DNA from: Mariprofundaceae bacterium
GTDB lineage: Bacteria > Pseudomonadota > Zetaproteobacteria > Mariprofundales > Mariprofundaceae
DNA length: 64,000 nt
Direction of reading: 5' to 3'
Assembly: GCA_021772895.1 (NCBI GenBank)
Contig: JAJFLC010000012.1
Span: 124,001-188,000 of the forward strand
This document shows positions 5,492-50,055 of this stretch, one piece after another. The position numbers and the translations under genes are program-made. Within the stretch, counting starts at the first letter, position 1, and every line of letters begins with the position of its first letter. The notes beneath the pieces are model-generated. The model saw only the letters and a list, made by a program, of their open reading frames with translations, did not search any database and was not told the origin of the DNA.

Positions 5492-5769
5492 CCAAACCTC
5501 TCAAAAATTGAATCATGGCAACCCTCACCGGATTTTCATGCAATCATAGCCATACAGCTCAAAAACATGTGCAACGGCAGAGGAGCTTTCTCACACATCG
5601 ATAAGTCAGACCTTATGAAGGAGACAAAGTGTCATTCTAAAAAACATTAAAAGCAACCGTTTCGCTCGACGATTTAAGCCCTGTGACAAGCCCATAACTT
5701 ATGTAGGTGGTTGCAATCGATAAAGATGTTATCATCAGGGTCAAATTTTATTTGGAGGAAGAGATTATC

Positions 5770-6342
5770 ATGAAAATCTTTACAGACCATCGCTGGACCA
5801 TCGGTGCCGGCGTTATCCTTGCCCTAGTTCTTGCAACCGTTGGCATTATCTCACAAGGCGAAAGTTACAAAGGCTTCGACGCTGACACACTGATTCGTTT
5901 CGGGCATATCCTTTCCGGTATCACATGGATCGGCCTGCTCTATTATTTCAACTTTGTTCAGGTTCCATCACTCGGTGGCGTCACCCCTGAAACCAAAGCA
6001 GACATCTTCAAAGAAGGCAGCATTGTCCGTCGCGCTTTGTGGTGGTTCCGCTGGGGCGCAATGTTCACCCTGATTTTTGGCATCCTGTTGTTCATGAATC
6101 TGGGTGCTGGTGCTGGTTGGGATATTCGTATCGGCGCCATATTTGGTATTATCATGTGGATCAACGTATGGATGATCATCTGGCCAAACCAGAAACGTGT
6201 CATCGGTATCACAGAAGCCACTGCGGATGAAAAAGCTGCTGCAGGTAAAAAAGCACTGATGGCTTCTCGTCTAAACACCTTACTATCGATTCCAATGCTT
6301 CTGTTCATGGTAGCCAGCGCTCACTTCCCATTTTTTAACTAA
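5770..6342 (+). CDS. PuuD/urate-hydroxylase N-domain-like membrane protein
   Basis: The 190-residue product has about four to five membrane segments, with RFGHILSGITWIGLLYYFNFVQ in the first half. That histidine- and tryptophan-rich pattern is typical of the membrane domain of PuuD (urate hydroxylase), in which heme is thought to be bound. The cytochrome c domain found in full-length PuuD is absent, so urate oxidation should not be assumed. ATG 5770 is supported by GGAGG at 5754-5758. The gene is monocistronic with a strong terminator. It may be a heme-binding redox membrane protein. Confidence 0.65.
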   Translation: MKIFTDHRWTIGAGVILALVLATVGIISQGESYKGFDADTLIRFGHILSGITWIGLLYYFNFVQVPSLGGVTPETKADIFKEGSIVRRALWWFRWGAMFTLIFGILLFMNLGAGAGWDIRIGAIFGIIMWINVWMIIWPNQKRVIGITEATADEKAAAGKKALMASRLNTLLSIPMLLFMVASAHFPFFN

Positions 6343-7265: not shown

Positions 7266-7462
7266 AAGTTAATACGGTCTTCAAATACGTTCATAAGCTT
7301 AGAAAAAGAATAATTTCACAAAGTGATTTTGTTAAACATCTAACACCCCACCTATACCAAAAGGCAACAATCAAATCGATTTTCGTTATGTTATAACTTC
7401 CCGCTATGTTGAGCGTTAACCCTCTTCTTTCTTTTATATCTTCCTGAACGTACCTTTTCGGC

Positions 7463-8050
7463 ATGAGTTTACCCAAAGCCGTATTGCTGGATCGTGATGG
7501 TGTGATCAATTTTGATTCGCCCGACTACATTCTGACGCCTGAACAATGGCATCCCATTCCCGGAAGCCTTGAAGCGATTGCAAAACTTCACAAAGCAGGG
7601 ATTTCCATAGCCATCTGTAGCAACCAATCCGGCCTTGGCCGTGGCATGATGAATGAAGAACTGTTCCACGCCATTCATGCTAAAATGTTGTTAGCGATTG
7701 AAGAGGCTGGCGGCATGCTGACTCACGCGGCTTATTGCCCCCATAATCCGGACGATCAATGCAGCTGCCGCAAGCCGCTTCCCGGTTTGGTCTTTGAGGC
7801 ACTGAAGGCGCTAAACATAAAGGCAGAGCACGCCATCATGATTGGTGATTCAACCCGCGACATCGAGGCTGCCCATGCTGCGGGTGTAGATTCCGTGCTG
7901 GTTCAATCGGGATATGGTAATGCTCAGGCAATCCTTCAGCGTTCGCTTGTGATCAACCCTGAAATCAACGTTTATCCCGATCTTGCGGTTGCAGTCGATT
8001 CAATTTTGAGCCATAACCTTAGCACAACAGGAGAAAACAGATGCTCTTGA
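7463..8050 (+). CDS. gmhB: D-glycero-D-manno-heptose-1,7-bisphosphate 7-phosphatase
   Basis: GmhB dephosphorylates heptose bisphosphate in the ADP-heptose pathway for the lipopolysaccharide core. The 195-residue HAD-superfamily protein has catalytic aspartates in DRDGVI (D10, D12) and SNQSGLGRG. The GmhB-specific zinc loop C92-x-H94-x5-C100-x-C102 is present, followed by RKP and the MIGDS motif. All residues expected for activity are there. The stop overlaps the start of plsC by 10 bases, so the two are co-translated. Its presence implies a Gram-negative cell with heptose-containing LPS. Confidence 0.92.
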   Translation: MSLPKAVLLDRDGVINFDSPDYILTPEQWHPIPGSLEAIAKLHKAGISIAICSNQSGLGRGMMNEELFHAIHAKMLLAIEEAGGMLTHAAYCPHNPDDQCSCRKPLPGLVFEALKALNIKAEHAIMIGDSTRDIEAAHAAGVDSVLVQSGYGNAQAILQRSLVINPEINVYPDLAVAVDSILSHNLSTTGENRCS

Positions 8051-41404: not shown

Positions 41405-41615
41405 ATTTCAATCTTAAGTCTCATCCAACACCTTCCGTGATGTTTGTATTTACTCCAAATTGAACGCCTGATTTTGTCTACTTCGTCTAATATCCCATCA
41501 GGCATCCCTAGATAAGGGGGAAATCAACAAATGGTTATCCCATGGAGCCTTTGATTCAATATTCACTGTGCAACAGGCCTACCATTGCTATTCAGCGTTA
41601 AATCGCCAATAACGA

Positions 41616-42131
41616 TTATAGTACACGTACAGACTTATAATAGGCACGCTGCCAATAAGGAGACAACTTCGAAAGCATGACGCCTTTAGATTTAGAGGCA
41701 TGGATAAATTGATTGTTTCCAACGTAGATGCCGGTGTGCAAACCGGTTCGTGATGTTTTGAATAAAACAATGTCACCAGCTGTTAACCTGCGATATGAAA
41801 CCCGTCTGCCAGTTCTTGCTAACAGTTGAGTTGAGCGTGGCACTTCAATACCAAGCACATCCCGAAAAGCAATATGTACAAAACCTGAGCAGTCCACACC
41901 ATATTTGCTATTACCACCAAAACGGTAGGGTGCGCCTTCCCATTTCTGGAAGTGACGTAGCAATTGCTGGCGCATGGTTTTTCCCGATGTATGTGCAATG
42001 CGATATTCAGAAGGTGTTGTATAGCCTGCGGCTATCGCTTGCTGTGAACCAACAGGGCATAATAAAATAACAGCCATTGCCCACCCGTAGACAGGAATTG
42101 TATGGCGAAGATAATATAAGGTGGCTTGCAT
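41616..42131 (-). CDS. NlpC/P60 cell-wall endopeptidase
   Basis: This 171-residue secreted protein has an N-terminal hydrophobic signal or anchor (about 11-35). An NlpC/P60 domain follows with the catalytic triad C81 (VDCSGFV), H132 (GLHTGIY) and H144 (FIHASKS). It resembles MepS/NlpC, which cut the D-Ala-mDAP cross-links or stems of peptidoglycan. A cysteine at 25 is not in a good lipobox context. All catalytic residues are present. Confidence 0.9.
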   Translation of the reverse strand: MQATLYYLRHTIPVYGWAMAVILLCPVGSQQAIAAGYTTPSEYRIAHTSGKTMRQQLLRHFQKWEGAPYRFGGNSKYGVDCSGFVHIAFRDVLGIEVPRSTQLLARTGRRVSYRRLTAGDIVLFKTSRTGLHTGIYVGNNQFIHASKSKGVMLSKLSPYWQRAYYKSVRVL

Positions 42132-42316
42132 GGCCCCATTCTACGGCACATAAGGATTCAATGTGTGAGCCGGATCACCGGAACGGGTTGTAAATAATAC
42201 AAGTAAGGGTGGAATTTATGCGAACATTGGAAGCGATCATATCGAAACCCTGATTATATATTGATGCTCAGCCAGTTATGCCAACCCATCCAATCACGAA
42301 AATAACAGTGAGAAGA

Positions 42317-43186
42317 CTAGGCAAACTCGGGAAGCAGACTGGCTTCAAATACCGGGCCATCGACACAAACACGCCGGTATTTCTCTTCTCCTTCTTCAAC
42401 AGTTTTCACCACACATCCGGCACAGCCACCAATGGCACAGGCCATATGTTCTTCCAGACTTAAATAGGTTGGCAGCCCCAGTTCTCGCCCAACTCTTGCC
42501 ACAGCATGCAGCATGGGATGTGGGCCACATGAAAGTAACACACAGCGAGAACGTTCTTCTTCATTTAGTGCCAGAAGATAGTCACGGGCAAGATCGGGCA
42601 CATGGCCTTCATAACAGCCATAAAACCCTGCGTTGGAGGCAAGACGCGAGGTAATGCCGCGTTCTTCCAAAGAGGTAATGCCCAGAATGGTATTTCCTCC
42701 TACACCGGGAAGCAGAGCAGTGGATGGTTTTAAGGCAAAAGGAAATTCAACTTCGGAGCCTGCAAATACCACTGTGGATGCTTTGTCTATCAAGTGCATC
42801 GCACAGAAAATCATAGGTGGGATGCCCACGCCGCCGCCAATCAAAACGTAACGCTTTGAATGATCCGACAAATCAAATGGACGCCCGATAGGACCAAGTA
42901 TGGGCATGGTTTCGCCCACTTTTCGTTCACGCAGTAACCGGGTACCTTCACCAATCGCTTTAACCAGCAGATCAACCGTACCTTTTTCAGGATCGGTCAA
43001 CATAATGGAGATAGGACGGCGCATCGGACGTTCATCTGACACCTGTAAGTGTACAAACTGGCCCGGCTCGGCGGTCGCTGCTGTTTTTGGTGCTTTGACA
43101 CGCATCACAAACTGATCGCCGGGATGATGAACATTGGCGAGAATTTCGGCGGACTCTTCAAAAATCGTATTTCTTTGAGGAGTCAT
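42317..43186 (-). CDS. pyrK: Dihydroorotate dehydrogenase electron-transfer subunit
   Basis: PyrK carries FAD and a [2Fe-2S] cluster and passes electrons from the PyrD-type subunit to NAD. The 289-residue protein has the FNR-type FAD site (PMRRPISIML) and the NAD-binding GGGVGIPPMIF. The C-terminal cluster motif is C-x4-C-x2-C...C in CAIGGCAGCVVKT...RRVC. It is the last gene of the minus-strand pyrimidine block, separated from pyrC by the restriction-modification pair. The partner pyrD is not in the window. Confidence 0.92.
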   Translation of the reverse strand: MTPQRNTIFEESAEILANVHHPGDQFVMRVKAPKTAATAEPGQFVHLQVSDERPMRRPISIMLTDPEKGTVDLLVKAIGEGTRLLRERKVGETMPILGPIGRPFDLSDHSKRYVLIGGGVGIPPMIFCAMHLIDKASTVVFAGSEVEFPFALKPSTALLPGVGGNTILGITSLEERGITSRLASNAGFYGCYEGHVPDLARDYLLALNEEERSRCVLLSCGPHPMLHAVARVGRELGLPTYLSLEEHMACAIGGCAGCVVKTVEEGEEKYRRVCVDGPVFEASLLPEFA

Positions 43187-43201
43187 AAATAATCTAATCG
43201 T

Positions 43202-43879
43202 TCAGGGAGTGTTATCAGTTTCATAAGGGGTGGCCGATTCAAGCATTGTAGGCTGGGCCGCTTGTGAGTGATTGGAATATGTTGGCCAATTTGGTTGATA
43301 ATCTTCAGCCTGGTTTCCCCAAGTTACCCAGTGTTCTCTGCTTCCTCGACCAAACAGTTCCAAATATGGTCCCGGACTGCACTCTTCAATAATCGAGTAT
43401 TGTTCATCAGGTTTTCTGGAGTGTTCACGTTTGCGAGAACGAATAATATTCACCTGTCTTCGTCCAGGCTGAAGCGTACGCATGCTGCCTCGGATGCCAA
43501 ATAAAATTATTTCGGTTACGTTGCGAAAATAAAAACCAACACCGCGTCCGTCTGGTCCGCCATCTTTACGAACTTTTTCCCAGATAACGTTGGTTTTATA
43601 TGTGAAGCCCCACGCCTCCATAACTGCCAAGCCTTCTGCCAATAATGCATTGGGGACCCATAAATAGAGATGTGCATTGTCTTCAGCAGCCTGGTGTACG
43701 GGAATATCTTTAATTTTTTGTAAATTTAAAGTTGGATAACGTGAAAGCCTTTTATGCTCAGGAGCCATCTTTCCTGTACGATTTTGGAATTGCCATGGGG
43801 GGTCGGCAAGAATGGTTTTAAATCGATGATTGCCAATAAACTGTTGAAAATCTTTACTGGCATCTATTTCTTGAGTCAT
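43202..43879 (-). CDS. MT-A70-family adenine-N6 DNA methyltransferase (R-M partner)
   Basis: This 225-residue protein has the catalytic motif DPPW at 26-29, followed by HLYLWVPNALLAEGLAVMEAWGFTYKTNVIW and the C-terminal LELFGRGSREHWVTWGNQ, typical of MT-A70 m6A methyltransferases. Next to a restriction endonuclease gene it most likely protects the host recognition site by adenine methylation. Its ATG lies one base after the endonuclease stop (TAA-A-ATG), so translation is coupled. The last 30 residues are a low-complexity tail. pyrK starts 15 bases downstream. Confidence 0.85.
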   Translation of the reverse strand: MTQEIDASKDFQQFIGNHRFKTILADPPWQFQNRTGKMAPEHKRLSRYPTLNLQKIKDIPVHQAAEDNAHLYLWVPNALLAEGLAVMEAWGFTYKTNVIWEKVRKDGGPDGRGVGFYFRNVTEIILFGIRGSMRTLQPGRRQVNIIRSRKREHSRKPDEQYSIIEECSPGPYLELFGRGSREHWVTWGNQAEDYQPNWPTYSNHSQAAQPTMLESATPYETDNTP

Positions 43880-43880
43880 T

Positions 43881-44471
43881 TTAACAATCCTCTATATAAA
43901 GTGTATCTTTAATGCCAAATACAAGGATTGGACAACCACCACCGCTGCCCCCCTCGACACGAGGCAACAATTTCCCCATATGTGTTGTAGACGCCCCGTA
44001 AGAGGCCCCCCGGCCAAGTGACTTAAAGATATTTTGCAACTCATCACAACGGGTAATAATGATACCAACACTAACTGCTCGAAGATCAAACAGTAAGCGA
44101 AAATTGTTTAGGTCACGGTCAAAAAACGGGTCTTTATTATTCCATTCAATTTCAAGCGCAACTCTGTTTTTAAAGCAGTCAATTTTATGCGTCGGGGTAT
44201 TCATTTCATTTTCATCGACAACGACTTTTGTTGAAAAGTCCTTTTCAACCCAGCCGAGGTCATAAAGAAAGCTATCGATCCAACCCGATACTTTTGACTT
44301 TCTTCCTCCACCAACAGTGATCCAACTTTTCATCAACCGAAAATCGGTAAGCATTGCTAATAAATCTTCCCACTCGTCAGGAAAGTCATTTTTTAAAATT
44401 GCGCAAGCGTGCTTCCATTCATGAACTTCATAATGTTCCGTGATGTAGTACGGTAATAATTCCTTTCCCAT
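43881..44471 (-). CDS. BglII/BstYI-family type II restriction endonuclease
   Basis: This 196-residue protein carries HKIDCFKNRVALEIEWNNKDPFFDRDL. The acidic set D98...E107-x-E109 has the spacing of the BglII/BstYI active site, and IEWNNKDPFFDRDLNNFR is the family signature. BstYI cuts RGATCY and BglII AGATCT, so a GATC-core target is a reasonable expectation; it is inferred from family only. It is coupled to the MT-A70 methyltransferase, forming a compact type II restriction-modification unit. It starts 34 bases after the pyrC stop on the same strand. The putative active-site residues are all present. Confidence 0.85.
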   Translation of the reverse strand: MGKELLPYYITEHYEVHEWKHACAILKNDFPDEWEDLLAMLTDFRLMKSWITVGGGRKSKVSGWIDSFLYDLGWVEKDFSTKVVVDENEMNTPTHKIDCFKNRVALEIEWNNKDPFFDRDLNNFRLLFDLRAVSVGIIITRCDELQNIFKSLGRGASYGASTTHMGKLLPRVEGGSGGGCPILVFGIKDTLYIEDC

Positions 44472-44504
44472 GCAGTGAACCTATCTAACTTTTCAGAAAC
44501 ATCA

Positions 44505-45788
44505 TTAGCAAATCTGACCATTCTGATAAACAATACGTCCCGCCTTGATGGTATGATTGACCTGACCGGTCATTTTTTTGCCATGCCATGGTGTGTTTTT
44601 ACCTTTGGATACAAGCTTTTCACGATCCAAAGTCCACGTGGCACCGGCATCAAAAATGGTAATGTCTGCCTCTGCACCTACACTCAACGTGCCTGAATCA
44701 AGATTTAACAGCTTTGCAGGATTGCAGGTCATCTTGGCAATCATGTCAGACATCGAAAGTACATGATCGCGTACAAGTCCAAGAGAAACTGGCAGCATCG
44801 TCTCCAGACCCACAATGCCAAATGCTGCACAAGAGAGGCCACAGCGTTTGTCATCTTCATGATGGGGAGCATGATCCGTTGCAATCACTTCAATCGTACC
44901 ATCTCGCAAACCTTCGATCACAGCCAGACGATCTTCTTCGGTACGCAGTGGCGGACTCATTTTTGCATCCACGTTAAAACCAAGCACTTCTTCTTCGGTG
45001 AGCGCAAAGTGATGGGGTGCAGCTTCTGTCGTGACATGAAGTCCTTCCGCCTTTGCATCGCGCACCATCTTTACCCCTCCTTTGGAGGAGATATGTGCGA
45101 CATGATATCGGGCATCCGCACGACGTGTTAACATGATATCGCGGGAGATCATGGAGTCTTCACCTTCAACCGGCATGCCAGTAACCCCGAGCTGAGTGGA
45201 GATCCAGCCTTCGTTAATACAACCGTCTTTGGTCAACGCCAGCTCTTCGGCATGCTGAATAATCATATAGCCAAAACTGGCAGAATATTCGAGTGCCTTG
45301 CGCATCACGCCAGCATGCCAGATAGGCGCACCATCATCAGAAAAAGCCACGCAGCCTGCGCGTGTAAGTTCACGCATCTCGGTAAGCTCTTTGCCATTCA
45401 GGTTTTTGGTGACTGCCCCAATGGGATGAACATTGCACAGGCCAACCTGATCGGAGCGTTCGATGATCTGACGGGCAATGCCTGCATGATCAATGTGCGG
45501 ACCAGTATTGGGCATACAGCACATACTGGTAATGCCTCCCGCAACCGCAGCACGGGAGCCGGATTCAATGTCTTCTTTCCATTCCTGACCCGGTTCACGC
45601 AAATGCACATGCATATCAATCAGACCGGGGCAGACGATTTTGCCAGCTGCATCAATGATCTGATCTGCTGTGCCGCTATGCTTTCCTATTGCCGTGACCT
45701 TTCCATCCTCGACCCAAAGATCCGTTTTTTTATCTATGCCATTGGCAGGATCAATCACATGACCATTTTCAATTTTAAGTTTAGGCAT
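44505..45788 (-). CDS. pyrC: Dihydroorotase (class I)
   Basis: Dihydroorotase cyclises carbamoyl-aspartate in pyrimidine synthesis. The 427-residue amidohydrolase has the zinc-binding DMHVHLREPGQEWKEDI, VAHISSKGG and ATDHAPHHEDDK motifs, with the TAEAAPHH-type segment TTEAAPHHFALT. Length and motifs mark the active class I enzyme rather than the inactive PyrC-like partner of ATCase. The start overlaps the upstream thioesterase gene by 8 bases. Confidence 0.95.
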   Translation of the reverse strand: MPKLKIENGHVIDPANGIDKKTDLWVEDGKVTAIGKHSGTADQIIDAAGKIVCPGLIDMHVHLREPGQEWKEDIESGSRAAVAGGITSMCCMPNTGPHIDHAGIARQIIERSDQVGLCNVHPIGAVTKNLNGKELTEMRELTRAGCVAFSDDGAPIWHAGVMRKALEYSASFGYMIIQHAEELALTKDGCINEGWISTQLGVTGMPVEGEDSMISRDIMLTRRADARYHVAHISSKGGVKMVRDAKAEGLHVTTEAAPHHFALTEEEVLGFNVDAKMSPPLRTEEDRLAVIEGLRDGTIEVIATDHAPHHEDDKRCGLSCAAFGIVGLETMLPVSLGLVRDHVLSMSDMIAKMTCNPAKLLNLDSGTLSVGAEADITIFDAGATWTLDREKLVSKGKNTPWHGKKMTGQVNHTIKAGRIVYQNGQIC

Positions 45789-46272
45789 AAGGCACCCCTT
45801 TCGACATCCCGGAGGTCGTCGGGCTGGTTAATACTGCAACAAAGTCACCTTTGTTTTTAGCCATCACCTGTTCATGACAGGTGATATCTGTGTTTAATGT
45901 CATGCGGGCTTTACCTTTACGTTTTAACATGTTGATAAATCGCGCACATACATCTGGAGATTCAAATTGACACTTTGCTTCAAAGTCATCATCCACAGGC
46001 TTCAGAAAGTCCATTTCACTGTGTTGAATAACAAGCCTGACCGACAGGCCTTGATCTGTTAACCATCTGTGTAACAAAGCCCAGCCAGCCATAATACCAA
46101 TGGATGAAAGGCTGCCACCAAATGCGGTGTTTCTATGGTTAAGGTTAGCTGCAAGCGGCGCAGAAAGTTTTATCCATGTATCCGTTGCATCCACCACCTG
46201 AATACCCAAATGCTGCGTGATGGGAATATGATCATAAAGATAATTCTGAACGTCCTGAATCGTTGCACTCAT
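45781..46272 (-). CDS. YiiD C-terminal-type hotdog thioesterase
   Basis: This 163-residue hotdog-fold protein carries LNHRNTAFGGSLSSIGIMAGWALL, the signature of the putative bacterial thioesterase domain found at the C-terminus of YiiD. It probably hydrolyses acyl-CoA or acyl-ACP; the substrate is unknown. It sits between pyrB and pyrC with short spacing or overlap on both sides, so it is co-transcribed with pyrimidine genes without an obvious pathway link. Confidence 0.8.
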   Translation of the reverse strand: MSATIQDVQNYLYDHIPITQHLGIQVVDATDTWIKLSAPLAANLNHRNTAFGGSLSSIGIMAGWALLHRWLTDQGLSVRLVIQHSEMDFLKPVDDDFEAKCQFESPDVCARFINMLKRKGKARMTLNTDITCHEQVMAKNKGDFVAVLTSPTTSGMSKGVPYA

Positions 46273-46275
46273 GAT

Positions 46276-47220
46276 TCATTCTTTCCCATCGTCACCACCA
46301 TCACCGCCACAAAGTGCTGCAAGTACCGCCATGCGGATGGCCACCCCATGCTCCACCTGAGCCAGAATATGACTTTTCACCGAATCAGCGACATCCGTCG
46401 CAATTTCAACACCACGGTTCATCGGACCGGGATGTAATACAAGGCAATCATCACCGGCCTTTTTCAGGCGTTGTGAATTCAATCCATAAGCCTCGTGATA
46501 TTCACGAATAGATGGGAAGGCACAGGAATCAGTGAGTCGTTCGCTCTGCACTCTTAACATATAAACTGCATCAGAACCGGGAAGTGCTTCATCAAAATCA
46601 TGATACACTTCACAGCCATAACGCTCGACTTCAGCGGGCAATAGCGTCCTGGGTGCCACGATACGCATCTTATAACCAAGTTTTTTGGCTGCCAAAAGGT
46701 GTGAGCGGGCTACACGGGAATGGGCAATATCGCCAACCATGGTGATCGTTTTTCCTTCCGGTGTTCCCCAGGCCTGTTTGAGTGTTAACAGATCAGTCAG
46801 GATCTGGGTTGGATGTTCATGGGCACCATCACCCGCGTTAACAATGGCTGTATTCTCCAAATGTTCAGCGAGAAACTCGCAGGTGCCCGAGATAGAATGT
46901 CGAATTACCAGCACATGCGGTTGCATCGCAGCCAATGTCTGACCTGTATCCAGCAATGATTCACCTTTTTTGGTGGCGCTGGTAGAGGCTGAAATATTGA
47001 TAACATCGGCAGACAGACGTTTACCTGCAATTTCAAAACTGGTGCGTGTACGGGTTGAATTTTCAAAAAAAAGATTAATCACAGTCTTGCCACGGAGTGT
47101 GGGTGCCTTTTTCAATGAGCGGCGATTAATATCGATAAATGAATCGCCAAGATTCACCAGATATTCGATCTGCTCCCGATCCAGATCGGCGATGCCAAAC
47201 AGATGTTTCAAAGACTTCAT
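46276..47220 (-). CDS. pyrB: Aspartate carbamoyltransferase catalytic subunit
   Basis: PyrB condenses carbamoyl phosphate with aspartate, the first committed step of pyrimidine synthesis. The 314-residue protein has the carbamoyl-phosphate site STRTRTSFE, the HPTQILTDLLT loop and the aspartate-binding HPGPMNRGVEI. There is no pyrI, as in the pyrR-pyrB-pyrC arrangement. Its start overlaps the pyrR stop by 4 bases (ATGA). Confidence 0.96.
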   Translation of the reverse strand: MKSLKHLFGIADLDREQIEYLVNLGDSFIDINRRSLKKAPTLRGKTVINLFFENSTRTRTSFEIAGKRLSADVINISASTSATKKGESLLDTGQTLAAMQPHVLVIRHSISGTCEFLAEHLENTAIVNAGDGAHEHPTQILTDLLTLKQAWGTPEGKTITMVGDIAHSRVARSHLLAAKKLGYKMRIVAPRTLLPAEVERYGCEVYHDFDEALPGSDAVYMLRVQSERLTDSCAFPSIREYHEAYGLNSQRLKKAGDDCLVLHPGPMNRGVEIATDVADSVKSHILAQVEHGVAIRMAVLAALCGGDGGDDGKE

Positions 47221-47729
47221 GATTTCACCTGCCTTTGTTCCACAAACCAGCCCTCCGGGTCTGTTATCAGTTTCACCGATTGCTCAGGCTTTGCCTGATG
47301 GGCAAGGCCAACAAGATCAGCCGCAATTGGTAACTCACGACCACCCCGATCCAACAGAACAGCCAGCTTTATAGAGGCTGGGCGTCCATAATCGAAGATT
47401 TCGCCAAGTGCTGCGCGGATGGTTCGCCCGGTATAAAGAACATCATCTATCAGCCAAATGTTCTTATCTGAGAGATCAAAGGGGAGCTTACTTGGCCGGA
47501 CTTCCGGATTAGGGGCAATCGTATCCAGATCATCACGGTAGAAACTGATATCCAGATTACCGCGCTGAACTGAAACCTTTTGTTTTTGCAATCGATGTTG
47601 AAGTGCATCGGCCACCCTGGCACCACCGCGCTGGATGCCAATCATATAGATTTCGGATGATGAAATACTATTTGCCATGCTATCAAGTGCCTGATTAACG
47701 GTCAGGTTATCAAATATAACTTTAGACAC
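47217..47729 (-). CDS. pyrR: PyrR bifunctional regulator/uracil phosphoribosyltransferase-like protein
   Basis: The 170-residue type I phosphoribosyltransferase has the PRPP loop IWLIDDVLYTGRTIRAAL and IQRGGARVA, matching PyrR. In Firmicutes PyrR attenuates pyr mRNA; in Gram-negative bacteria it may act mainly as an enzyme. I see no convincing attenuator hairpin upstream of the cluster. It overlaps pyrB by 4 bases and follows ruvX by 6 bases. Confidence 0.92.
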   Translation of the reverse strand: MSKVIFDNLTVNQALDSMANSISSSEIYMIGIQRGGARVADALQHRLQKQKVSVQRGNLDISFYRDDLDTIAPNPEVRPSKLPFDLSDKNIWLIDDVLYTGRTIRAALGEIFDYGRPASIKLAVLLDRGGRELPIAADLVGLAHQAKPEQSVKLITDPEGWFVEQRQVKS

Positions 47730-47735
47730 GATGAA

Positions 47736-48248
47736 TCACCTCACTAATGCCTGATGTGCGGCAACAAAATCTTCAAGAATGACCGCTGCTGCGGTCTGAT
47801 CCAGTTTTGCCTTTACTTTTTTTTCGGAAAGTCCTTGCGCAAACAGACGCTCTTTTGCTGTCCATGTTGATAGGCGTTCATCCTGAAACAGAATGGGTAG
47901 TTCGGTGACTTCTTGCAACTCACCCGCACCTTTACGACAGTCATTCGCCTGATCGCCTTCGCTGCCATCCATGTTTTTAGCAAGCCCCACCACAATACCA
48001 TGACAGCCGTACTCTTTAATGAGTTTCAAAGCCTGTTTCGGCCAACCTGAATCATTCCTGTGCAGGCATGTGATGCCCCGGAATGAAAAGCCAAGACTGT
48101 CAGAAACGGCAACACCAATGCGTTTCTTTCCTATATCCAGAGCCAATAAAGGCAATGATAAATTTTCAGGGATTTTTTGAGAAATAGTAGAAGTTACCGT
48201 GGATTGTGATGCCACGAAATCAGAAGTTGAGCAAGATGCGACTGTCAT
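47736..48248 (-). CDS. ruvX: RuvX/YqgF, putative pre-16S rRNA nuclease
   Basis: YqgF-family RNase H-fold protein of about 160-170 residues, with LLALDIGKKRIGVAVSD near the N-terminus. GIVVGLAKNMDGSEGDQAN and FQDERLSTWTAKERL complete the family set of acidic residues. It is implicated in 16S rRNA 5' maturation. The start is uncertain: ATG 48248 overlaps the upstream reductase gene by 29 bases, while GTG 48215 would begin just past that gene's stop. It leads into pyrR by 6 bases, a common ruvX-pyrR linkage. Confidence 0.9.
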   Translation of the reverse strand: MTVASCSTSDFVASQSTVTSTISQKIPENLSLPLLALDIGKKRIGVAVSDSLGFSFRGITCLHRNDSGWPKQALKLIKEYGCHGIVVGLAKNMDGSEGDQANDCRKGAGELQEVTELPILFQDERLSTWTAKERLFAQGLSEKKVKAKLDQTAAAVILEDFVAAHQALVR

Positions 48249-48915
48249 CAAATCCAAGATTCTGCAACGTTTCGGTGCATGCGTCCACCATTGCACTCAT
48301 TCCAGCCAAACAAACTACGCTATTTTCAGGGTCTGGATGATCTGCCAGTAACGCATCCTGCACATAGCCAATCGGCCCATTCCAATCATCATCTGTTCTA
48401 TCAAGAGAGATTTTCACCTCAATATGCTGCTCAGAAAGAGCTTCCAGTTCATCGGTTAACAGACGATGCAAAGGGGTAAGAAAACCTGCATAAATCGTCA
48501 CTTTTCCGTAAGACTCACGCTCTTCAATAATCGATCTCCAAACACTGCGTAAAGGTGAAATTCCCGTGCCAACACCCATCAAAATCACGTTGCATTTTTT
48601 GAATGGTAACAGATCAAAACCTTTGCCCATGGGACCTTCAACTTCAATTTCCGCTCCCGGAGCAAGTTCGGAAAGATAATCGGCCATGCCTGATCCCCGT
48701 TTAACAACAAATTCATAATAACGTGCTTCATAAGGGGATGAAGCAACAGCAAAATAAGCAGGGGCCGGATTTTTCACACCCGGAATTCCCATGACAACAA
48801 ACTGCCCGGCGGTAAACGGCAAAACATTTTTTCGGTCTATGTTTTCAAGGCGTAACTTTACAACCACATCCTCACATGCCGTATCAGTGATACGAATATT
48901 TTCTATCAAACGCAT
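48220..48915 (-). CDS. FAD/NAD(P)-binding oxidoreductase (ferredoxin reductase-like)
   Basis: The 231-residue protein has an FNR-type FAD domain (FTAGQFVVMGIPG...RYYEFVVKRGSGMADYLSEL) and an NAD(P) domain (VILMGVGTGISPLRSVWRS...VCLAGMSAMVDA). It lacks an iron-sulfur motif, so it resembles flavin reductase or hydrogenase/sulfhydrogenase gamma-type electron carriers. Its electron partner is unknown. ATG 48915 is preferred; TTG 48939 with GAGG upstream is possible. It is the first gene of the pyrimidine block, and 48940-49206 is a divergent promoter region with nothing else recognisable. Confidence 0.8.
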   Translation of the reverse strand: MRLIENIRITDTACEDVVVKLRLENIDRKNVLPFTAGQFVVMGIPGVKNPAPAYFAVASSPYEARYYEFVVKRGSGMADYLSELAPGAEIEVEGPMGKGFDLLPFKKCNVILMGVGTGISPLRSVWRSIIEERESYGKVTIYAGFLTPLHRLLTDELEALSEQHIEVKISLDRTDDDWNGPIGYVQDALLADHPDPENSVVCLAGMSAMVDACTETLQNLGFDDSRILLNF

Positions 48916-49206
48916 ACGACATATGGGGGATTGATGCAATATTAGCCTCGTATTTAAATCAACTCACTGCCAAGTTTAGTCAGAAAATTTTGCAACATAC
49001 TAGGACAAAATTTCGCGTTTGTCCTAACTCACAAGCCAAACACTTTTGTATTGTTTCTCTTTTTGACTTTCTGGACTCATCTTATGGCGGCTTTTAATTC
49101 CTAATCTGTCTATGATGCCGGGTTATAGCAGGCCAAACATCGGCTGCAAAACGTGAATGTTCACAAAGTAAAAATGACTGCGCCTTGCAGCCAGGGATAA
49201 ACAACG

Positions 49207-50055
49207 ATGCAAGAAACAACATGTCTGGAATTAAAAATTAGTGCTGAAGCCATGAATGAGGCATCTTTTTCATGGCTCGCAGAGTCCCAACATGCGCTGG
49301 GAACCGCACTCGAGACAGACGTTGATACAGATACTCAAATACATACGGCCTGGTTTGCCATCACCGAAGATGAACAGCTACAGCGCGCGCAGGTTTCTGC
49401 TGCGGCTCTACTCAGCGGAGCCACCGGCAGCCAGATACAACTTAAACGTTTGGGTGATGATTGGGCAACGGCATGGCAAGCGCATTGGCATGCGATGCAA
49501 ATCGGAATGCATCTCTGTGTACGGCCATCATTTTGCCAGCCACTGGAAGGAGATTACATTGATATCGTACTTGATCCCGGCATGGCTTTTGGTACCGGGC
49601 AACACGCAACAACATGCCTCTGCCTTGAAGCGATTGAACGAATTTGTGCTGAAAAAACGCCTGATAATGTGTTAGACATGGGAGCAGGCTCGGGGCTACT
49701 GGCAATTGCCAGCGGAAAACTGGGCGCAAAAAGCATTGTTGCCATTGATAATGATCCAATTTCAGTTGAGGCAAGCAAAGTTAACGCTAAAATCAATGGC
49801 GTGGCGCTGGAATCTATTCTTGATGACACACCGCCTGATCAAAAATTTGATCTTGTTGTTGCCAACATTCTTGCCGGGCCATTGATTGAAATGGCGCCAA
49901 AGCTAGCAGCATGTACAGGCACCCGGCTTGTACTCTCCGGCTTATTACGTGAACAGGTCGAACCGGTGAGCCAGGCTTATACAAATGAAGGAATGAAAGT
50001 GATCCGCACCGATACACAGGAAGAATGGGCATCTGTGGAATTGCAAAAACGTTGA
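49207..50055 (+). CDS. prmA: Ribosomal protein L11 methyltransferase
   Basis: PrmA trimethylates ribosomal protein L11 using SAM. The 282-residue protein has the N-terminal substrate-recognition domain and then LDPGMAFGTGQHATTCLCLEAI, a PrmA hallmark. SAM motif I is VLDMGAGSGLLAIASGKLGA, followed by the catalytic NILAGPLIEMAP. It is followed by the gdhA promoter region. Confidence 0.93.
   Translation: MQETTCLELKISAEAMNEASFSWLAESQHALGTALETDVDTDTQIHTAWFAITEDEQLQRAQVSAAALLSGATGSQIQLKRLGDDWATAWQAHWHAMQIGMHLCVRPSFCQPLEGDYIDIVLDPGMAFGTGQHATTCLCLEAIERICAEKTPDNVLDMGAGSGLLAIASGKLGAKSIVAIDNDPISVEASKVNAKINGVALESILDDTPPDQKFDLVVANILAGPLIEMAPKLAACTGTRLVLSGLLREQVEPVSQAYTNEGMKVIRTDTQEEWASVELQKR

Follow-up and report, generated by a model that had tools for sequence, protein, structure and literature searches.

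A two-gene Type II restriction-modification (R-M) pair lies between pyrC and pyrK in the genome of an iron-oxidising bacterium of the family Mariprofundaceae (Zetaproteobacteria; genome G000). The pair is very probably an intact mobile system of the Nph3I kind, which entered the pyrC/pyrK junction in a single insertion, has no evident promoter of its own and acts both as an operon passenger and in defence. We infer that its enzymes are active in the cell. All positions given without a genome or locus label refer to the window, i.e. the whole stretch of 64,000 nucleotides that was analyzed (G000:C4:124001-188000).

The gene order on the minus strand is ruvX, pyrR, pyrB, a thioesterase-domain gene, pyrC, the endonuclease gene (R), the methyltransferase gene (M) and a pyrK-like gene. 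Neighbors among the first four genes (45781-48296) lie a few bases apart or overlap to a similar extent. The upstream neighbor of the pair, pyrC (dihydroorotase; 44505-45788), was delimited by its ORF, Pfam and junction comparison, while the downstream neighbor (42317-43186) codes for a PyrK-like electron-transfer subunit of dihydroorotate dehydrogenase (PF10418, 1.5e-15). Both ORFs of the pair, R (43881-44471, 196 aa) and M (43202-43879, 225 aa), are intact; together they span 44471-43202 and are co-directional with pyrC and pyrK. The first-pass annotation, made from the sequence alone, had described a BglII/BstYI-type nuclease and an MT-A70 methyltransferase at this place, and the ORFs and Pfam matches bear this out. 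Of the three gaps that it gave (34, 1 and 15 nt), those between R and M and between M and pyrK are as stated; the gap between pyrC and R measures 33 nt. The genome has a single DHO_dh (PyrD) match, located elsewhere (L237, G000:C5:13675-14535) and unlinked to pyrK. It fits class-1 (PyrD subfamily 1) models, and a PyrD of this type would be consistent with the use of a PyrK-type partner.

The endonuclease matches PF09195 (Endonuc-BglII) with a Pfam E-value of 2e-47. The active-site residues D98, E107 and E109, already pointed out in the first-pass annotation, are invariant across 62 relatives and form the pattern D-(8 aa)-E-x-E. When the AlphaFold (AF2) model of R (mean pLDDT 91.3) was compared with the PDB, only BstYI entries matched at E<0.001 (TM 0.65-0.71, 17% identity); the predicted fold is that of BglII/BstYI, closest to BstYI. 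A sequence search of the PDB with R, profile included, matched no chain. Between G000 and its relative G008, dN/dS of R is 0.036, with dS near saturation, which argues that the gene is maintained.

The methyltransferase matches PF05063 (MT-A70, E=1.5e-29, Pfam) and MTase_II of PADLOC (1.4e-89), and it keeps the DPPW motif noticed earlier. No D12-type Dam methylase that would already protect GATC was found in the G000 genome. The pair had been described as having no regulator of its own, and indeed we found no controller (C) protein gene within or beside it; there is no room for one between the window genes. At the loci of other family members, the few small same-strand genes located upstream are, by inspection, unlike C proteins (HIT proteins are one example).

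The specificity of the pair can be approached through its phage relatives. In a tblastn search of phage records, NrS-2 and NrS-3, two phages of Nitratiruptor, proved to carry the same R-M pair, and another copy was present in Mesorhizobium phage Lo5R7ANS. The characterized enzymes, R.Nph3I and M.Nph3I, come from NrS-3, whereas identities were measured on the copies in its sister phage NrS-2: 69% over 194 aa for R and 73% over 203 aa for M. R.Nph3I produced in a cell-free system cuts all forms of RGATCY and is blocked by m6A (PMC10734518). M.Nph3I methylates the adenine of this site, giving RG(6mA)TCY, with a strong preference for GGATCC (PMC10734518). SMRT sequencing showed RGATCY to be 100% methylated both in the Nitratiruptor phage and in its host (PMC9723563). 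Because the characterized homolog is this similar, the m6A modification of a GATC-core site such as RGATCY, proposed in the first-pass annotation, is very likely correct. By analogy with Nph3I, it is very likely that R of the window cuts RGATCY, M produces RG(6mA)TCY and m6A blocks R. In the cell, R would thus cut unmethylated RGATCY, while M would shield the host by methylating the adenine of these sites. Relatives of the endonuclease are also present in seven viral contigs of IMG/VR (L238-L244, 57-74% identity), and phages are therefore plausible vehicles for the pair.

Site counts in G000, based on 464 kb of sampled sequence (the window and L115-L134), agree in part with this specificity. 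The observed/expected ratio of RGATCY is 0.68 in G000, whereas two relatives that lack the pair have ratios of 0.83 and 0.84; for GGATCC the corresponding values are 0.45 against 0.95 and 0.95. However, in two other genomes with the system the GGATCC ratio is 1.13 and 1.00, and avoidance is not uniform over the nine genomes. Because some of the other genomes of the family lack this pattern, the modest site avoidance is weak evidence for RGATCY. Several other sites are strongly under-represented in G000 relative to most of the relatives sampled, namely CTGCAG (0.31), GCCGGC (0.27) and GGCGCC (0.38); their avoidance suggests that other restriction systems are at work. Motif discovery by site avoidance alone was therefore given up: GGATCC and RGATCY are suggestive in G000 but confounded by the other avoided sites. 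The under-representation of RGATCY speaks against an inactive endonuclease accompanied by a methyltransferase working alone, as a relic or a source of orphan-like methylation. A full-length R ORF, the retention of every invariant residue and the low dN/dS against G008 all point the same way, and we consider such a state of the pair very unlikely.

RGATCY sites are denser in the pairs of this family (1.39 sites/kb) than in their flanks (0.63). Within R genes they cluster at the codons of the invariant K113-D114-P115 motif, where AAR-GAT-CCN always yields RGATCC. We considered whether selection keeps an RGATCY site inside R, and rejected this idea: the Asp codon of the motif is GAT in 69% of cases versus 64% for other Asp codons of R (p=0.4), and the site is a by-product of the invariant KDP. 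The window gene itself has GAC at this codon and contains no RGATCY, differing in this from the NrS-2 gene, which has GGATCC precisely at the KDP codons. The single GGATCC inside the R gene of NrS-3 was read as a self-protection device (PMC10734518). Because the site in NrS-2 R coincides with the invariant motif, the one in NrS-3 may, by extrapolation, be a mere by-product as well.

Comparison of the pyrC-pyrK junction among relatives indicates that the pair is an insertion. Out of 100 relatives, 84 match a pyrK query, and the endonuclease occurs only in G000, G008 and G058. The spacing check suggested in the first-pass annotation was run and yielded 17 aligned Mariprofundaceae relatives without the pair, in all of which pyrC and pyrK overlap or almost touch. 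In the nearest relatives the two genes form a coupled stop/start with an 8-nt overlap (ATGGCTGA or ATGACTAA). It is precisely this junction that the pair fills in G000 and G008, with an identical left edge, TGCTAATGATGTTTCTG. In G058, which has the third copy, the pair follows a radical-SAM/BATS gene that its sequence identifies as bioB; the pyr site of that genome is empty. Despite the different sites, about 43 nt preceding R (44472-44514 in the window) can be aligned among all three copies, two at the pyr site and one at bioB, a similarity equalled by a fraction of 0.0008 of random windows. The leader therefore travels with the pair. Its TGC TAA is where pyrC now terminates, and it also holds a weak ribosome-binding site for R; the PyrC C-terminus reads ...NGQIC in G000 compared with ...NGTIHG or ...NGTIHD in the nearest relatives. 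At the right-hand edge of the insert, the 15-nt gap between the M stop and the pyrK start (43187-43201), pyrK has no detectable ribosome-binding site: the duplex energy is +0.3 kcal/mol compared with -3.3 to -8.3 at native junctions. There is thus a hint that the insert may carry a polar cost to pyrK. A search for a target-site duplication around the insert in the window turned up nothing beyond short repeats at chance level.

Since G000 and G008 have the same junction and the same left edge, one insertion event is the simplest reading: the pair with its short leader would have entered the G000/G008 lineage once, at the overlapping pyrC stop and pyrK start. The tree of R agrees in placing G000 and G008 as sisters, with G058 next to them. 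A single clade (100/99) of the pyrC+pyrK tree unites G000, G008, G001 and G002. Within it, the two genomes whose sites are empty, G001 and G002, group with G008 rather than with G000, with moderate support (85/84). To account for this grouping, either G001/G002 must in addition have lost the pair or recombination must have transferred the junction.

The gaps between pyrC and R and between M and pyrK contain no terminator-like sites. The simplest reading of the gene arrangement is that expression of the pair, for which neither a promoter nor a controller gene is evident, most likely comes from the ruvX-pyrR-pyrB-pyrC transcript, although an internal promoter, e.g. one for M inside R, may exist. 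R-M systems elsewhere often possess their own promoters. The pair might likewise have an expression of its own, driven by promoters within R and the 3' end of pyrC; its location in the operon would then be purely positional. The order of the genes, with R before M, and the absence of a controller gene would fit such expression, as would promoter-like matches in pyrC (10/12; 45131-45102) and in R (9/12; 44209-44182). However, promoter-like matches in the region are no more numerous than in shuffled sequence (18 found, 21 expected), and the free space between the genes amounts to only 33 nt and 1 nt. We therefore regard independent expression as rather unlikely and favor expression from the upstream transcript.

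At least 573 database stretches contain relatives of the endonuclease. The nearest 80 of these, chosen by the endonuclease alone, come from many phyla, with identities of about 70-77% outside Zetaproteobacteria. In 75 of the 80, an MT-A70 gene follows directly downstream, matching over most of its length. The arrangement is thus not due to chance, and the coupling of such a nuclease with an MT-A70 enzyme, pointed out in the first-pass annotation, is the norm across the family and no oddity. With neighboring genes named after their Pfam domains or by visual inspection of the sequence, copies of the pair were seen in core operons between purL and purQ, gltB and gltD (L016), and metH and murB, and after dapD, hinT, nadE and nrdB. 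Operon interiors are nevertheless not enriched in the pair, a possibility that we considered and rejected. The pair is co-directional with and within 100 nt of both neighbors at 17 of the 62 loci (27%) where both neighbors were readable; since 32% of the other genes of the same loci are equally placed, there is no preference beyond normal operon density. One locus, L019, has a 170-nt direct repeat (90%) flanking the pair (5765-5934 and 7316-7485). The repeat is made of 3'-terminal sequence of the topoisomerase-like gene upstream, and the arrangement resembles an insertion with a long target duplication. Long target duplications have been described for R-M insertion.

This distribution bears on whether restriction dose is linked to pyrimidine gene expression, as had been proposed from the sequence. 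Under such a link, the dose of R and M would depend on PyrR or on pyrimidine supply, and selection would keep the coupling. The gene run does include pyrR and pyrB without visible isolating signals, and the position is retained in two genera. However, the G058 copy lies behind bioB, its pyr site being empty, and other family members reside in unrelated operons (glutamate, purine, lysine, NAD and nucleotide reductase). Moreover, three genomes of the same genus lack an R match and both readable sites among them are empty, and an Rfam search over 41500-50000 found no element, including a PyrR-type RNA leader, at E<=1. Because the same pair occupies unrelated operons elsewhere, a functional pyrimidine link is unsupported, and we find it highly improbable. 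A broader version would be that this widespread RGATCY family, with neither promoter nor controller gene and inserting at coupled stop/starts of essential biosynthetic operons, is regulated through the expression of the host operon. R and M doses would then track core metabolism, and loss of the segment would lead to post-segregational killing, locking the operon; this idea is unlikely. We prefer the reading in which the pair serves defence and is a self-maintaining passenger whose location would have been set by a chance insertion point.

The case is real but fairly ordinary, as both the enzymes and the habit of operon insertion are already known from relatives. Its value is in providing a clean before-and-after view of a two-gene R-M pair entering a coupled operon junction. 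This view rests on many empty sites, two sites apparently filled by one event and a third copy that reveals the travelling leader bases. In addition, a phage pair known from biochemistry gains a chromosomal family: the databases hold more than 570 relatives, and core operons harbor many of these. The locus offers a testable case of whether such passengers need their own promoter, but the general understanding of R-M biology stays as it was.

Among known systems, BstYI and BglII are partnered with N4-cytosine methyltransferases and have Gln at the position of E109 in the family of the window R. BstYI resembles R both in its site, RGATCY, as predicted for R, and as the closest fold in the PDB, whereas BglII cuts AGATCT only. 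BstYI and MflI are isoschizomers with opposite methylation sensitivity (PMC10734518). The likeness to the Nph3I pair of NrS-3/NrS-2 is closer: in both cases a PF09195 endonuclease is followed directly by an adenine methyltransferase, the KDP and catalytic residues are the same, and a C-protein gene linked to the pair was identified in neither. The Nph3I pair, however, is phage-borne, while that of the window is chromosomal, inside the pyr operon. R-M pairs of the PabI family are also found inserted in operons, including between the glutamate synthase subunits, and post-segregational killing has been suggested to maintain an operon with such an insert (PMC4615327). The window pair shares with them the same-strand placement in a biosynthetic operon, and its L016 relative likewise lies between gltB and gltD. 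It differs from them in belonging to another enzyme family and in that its insert opened a coupled stop/start overlap and gives the upstream gene its stop codon.
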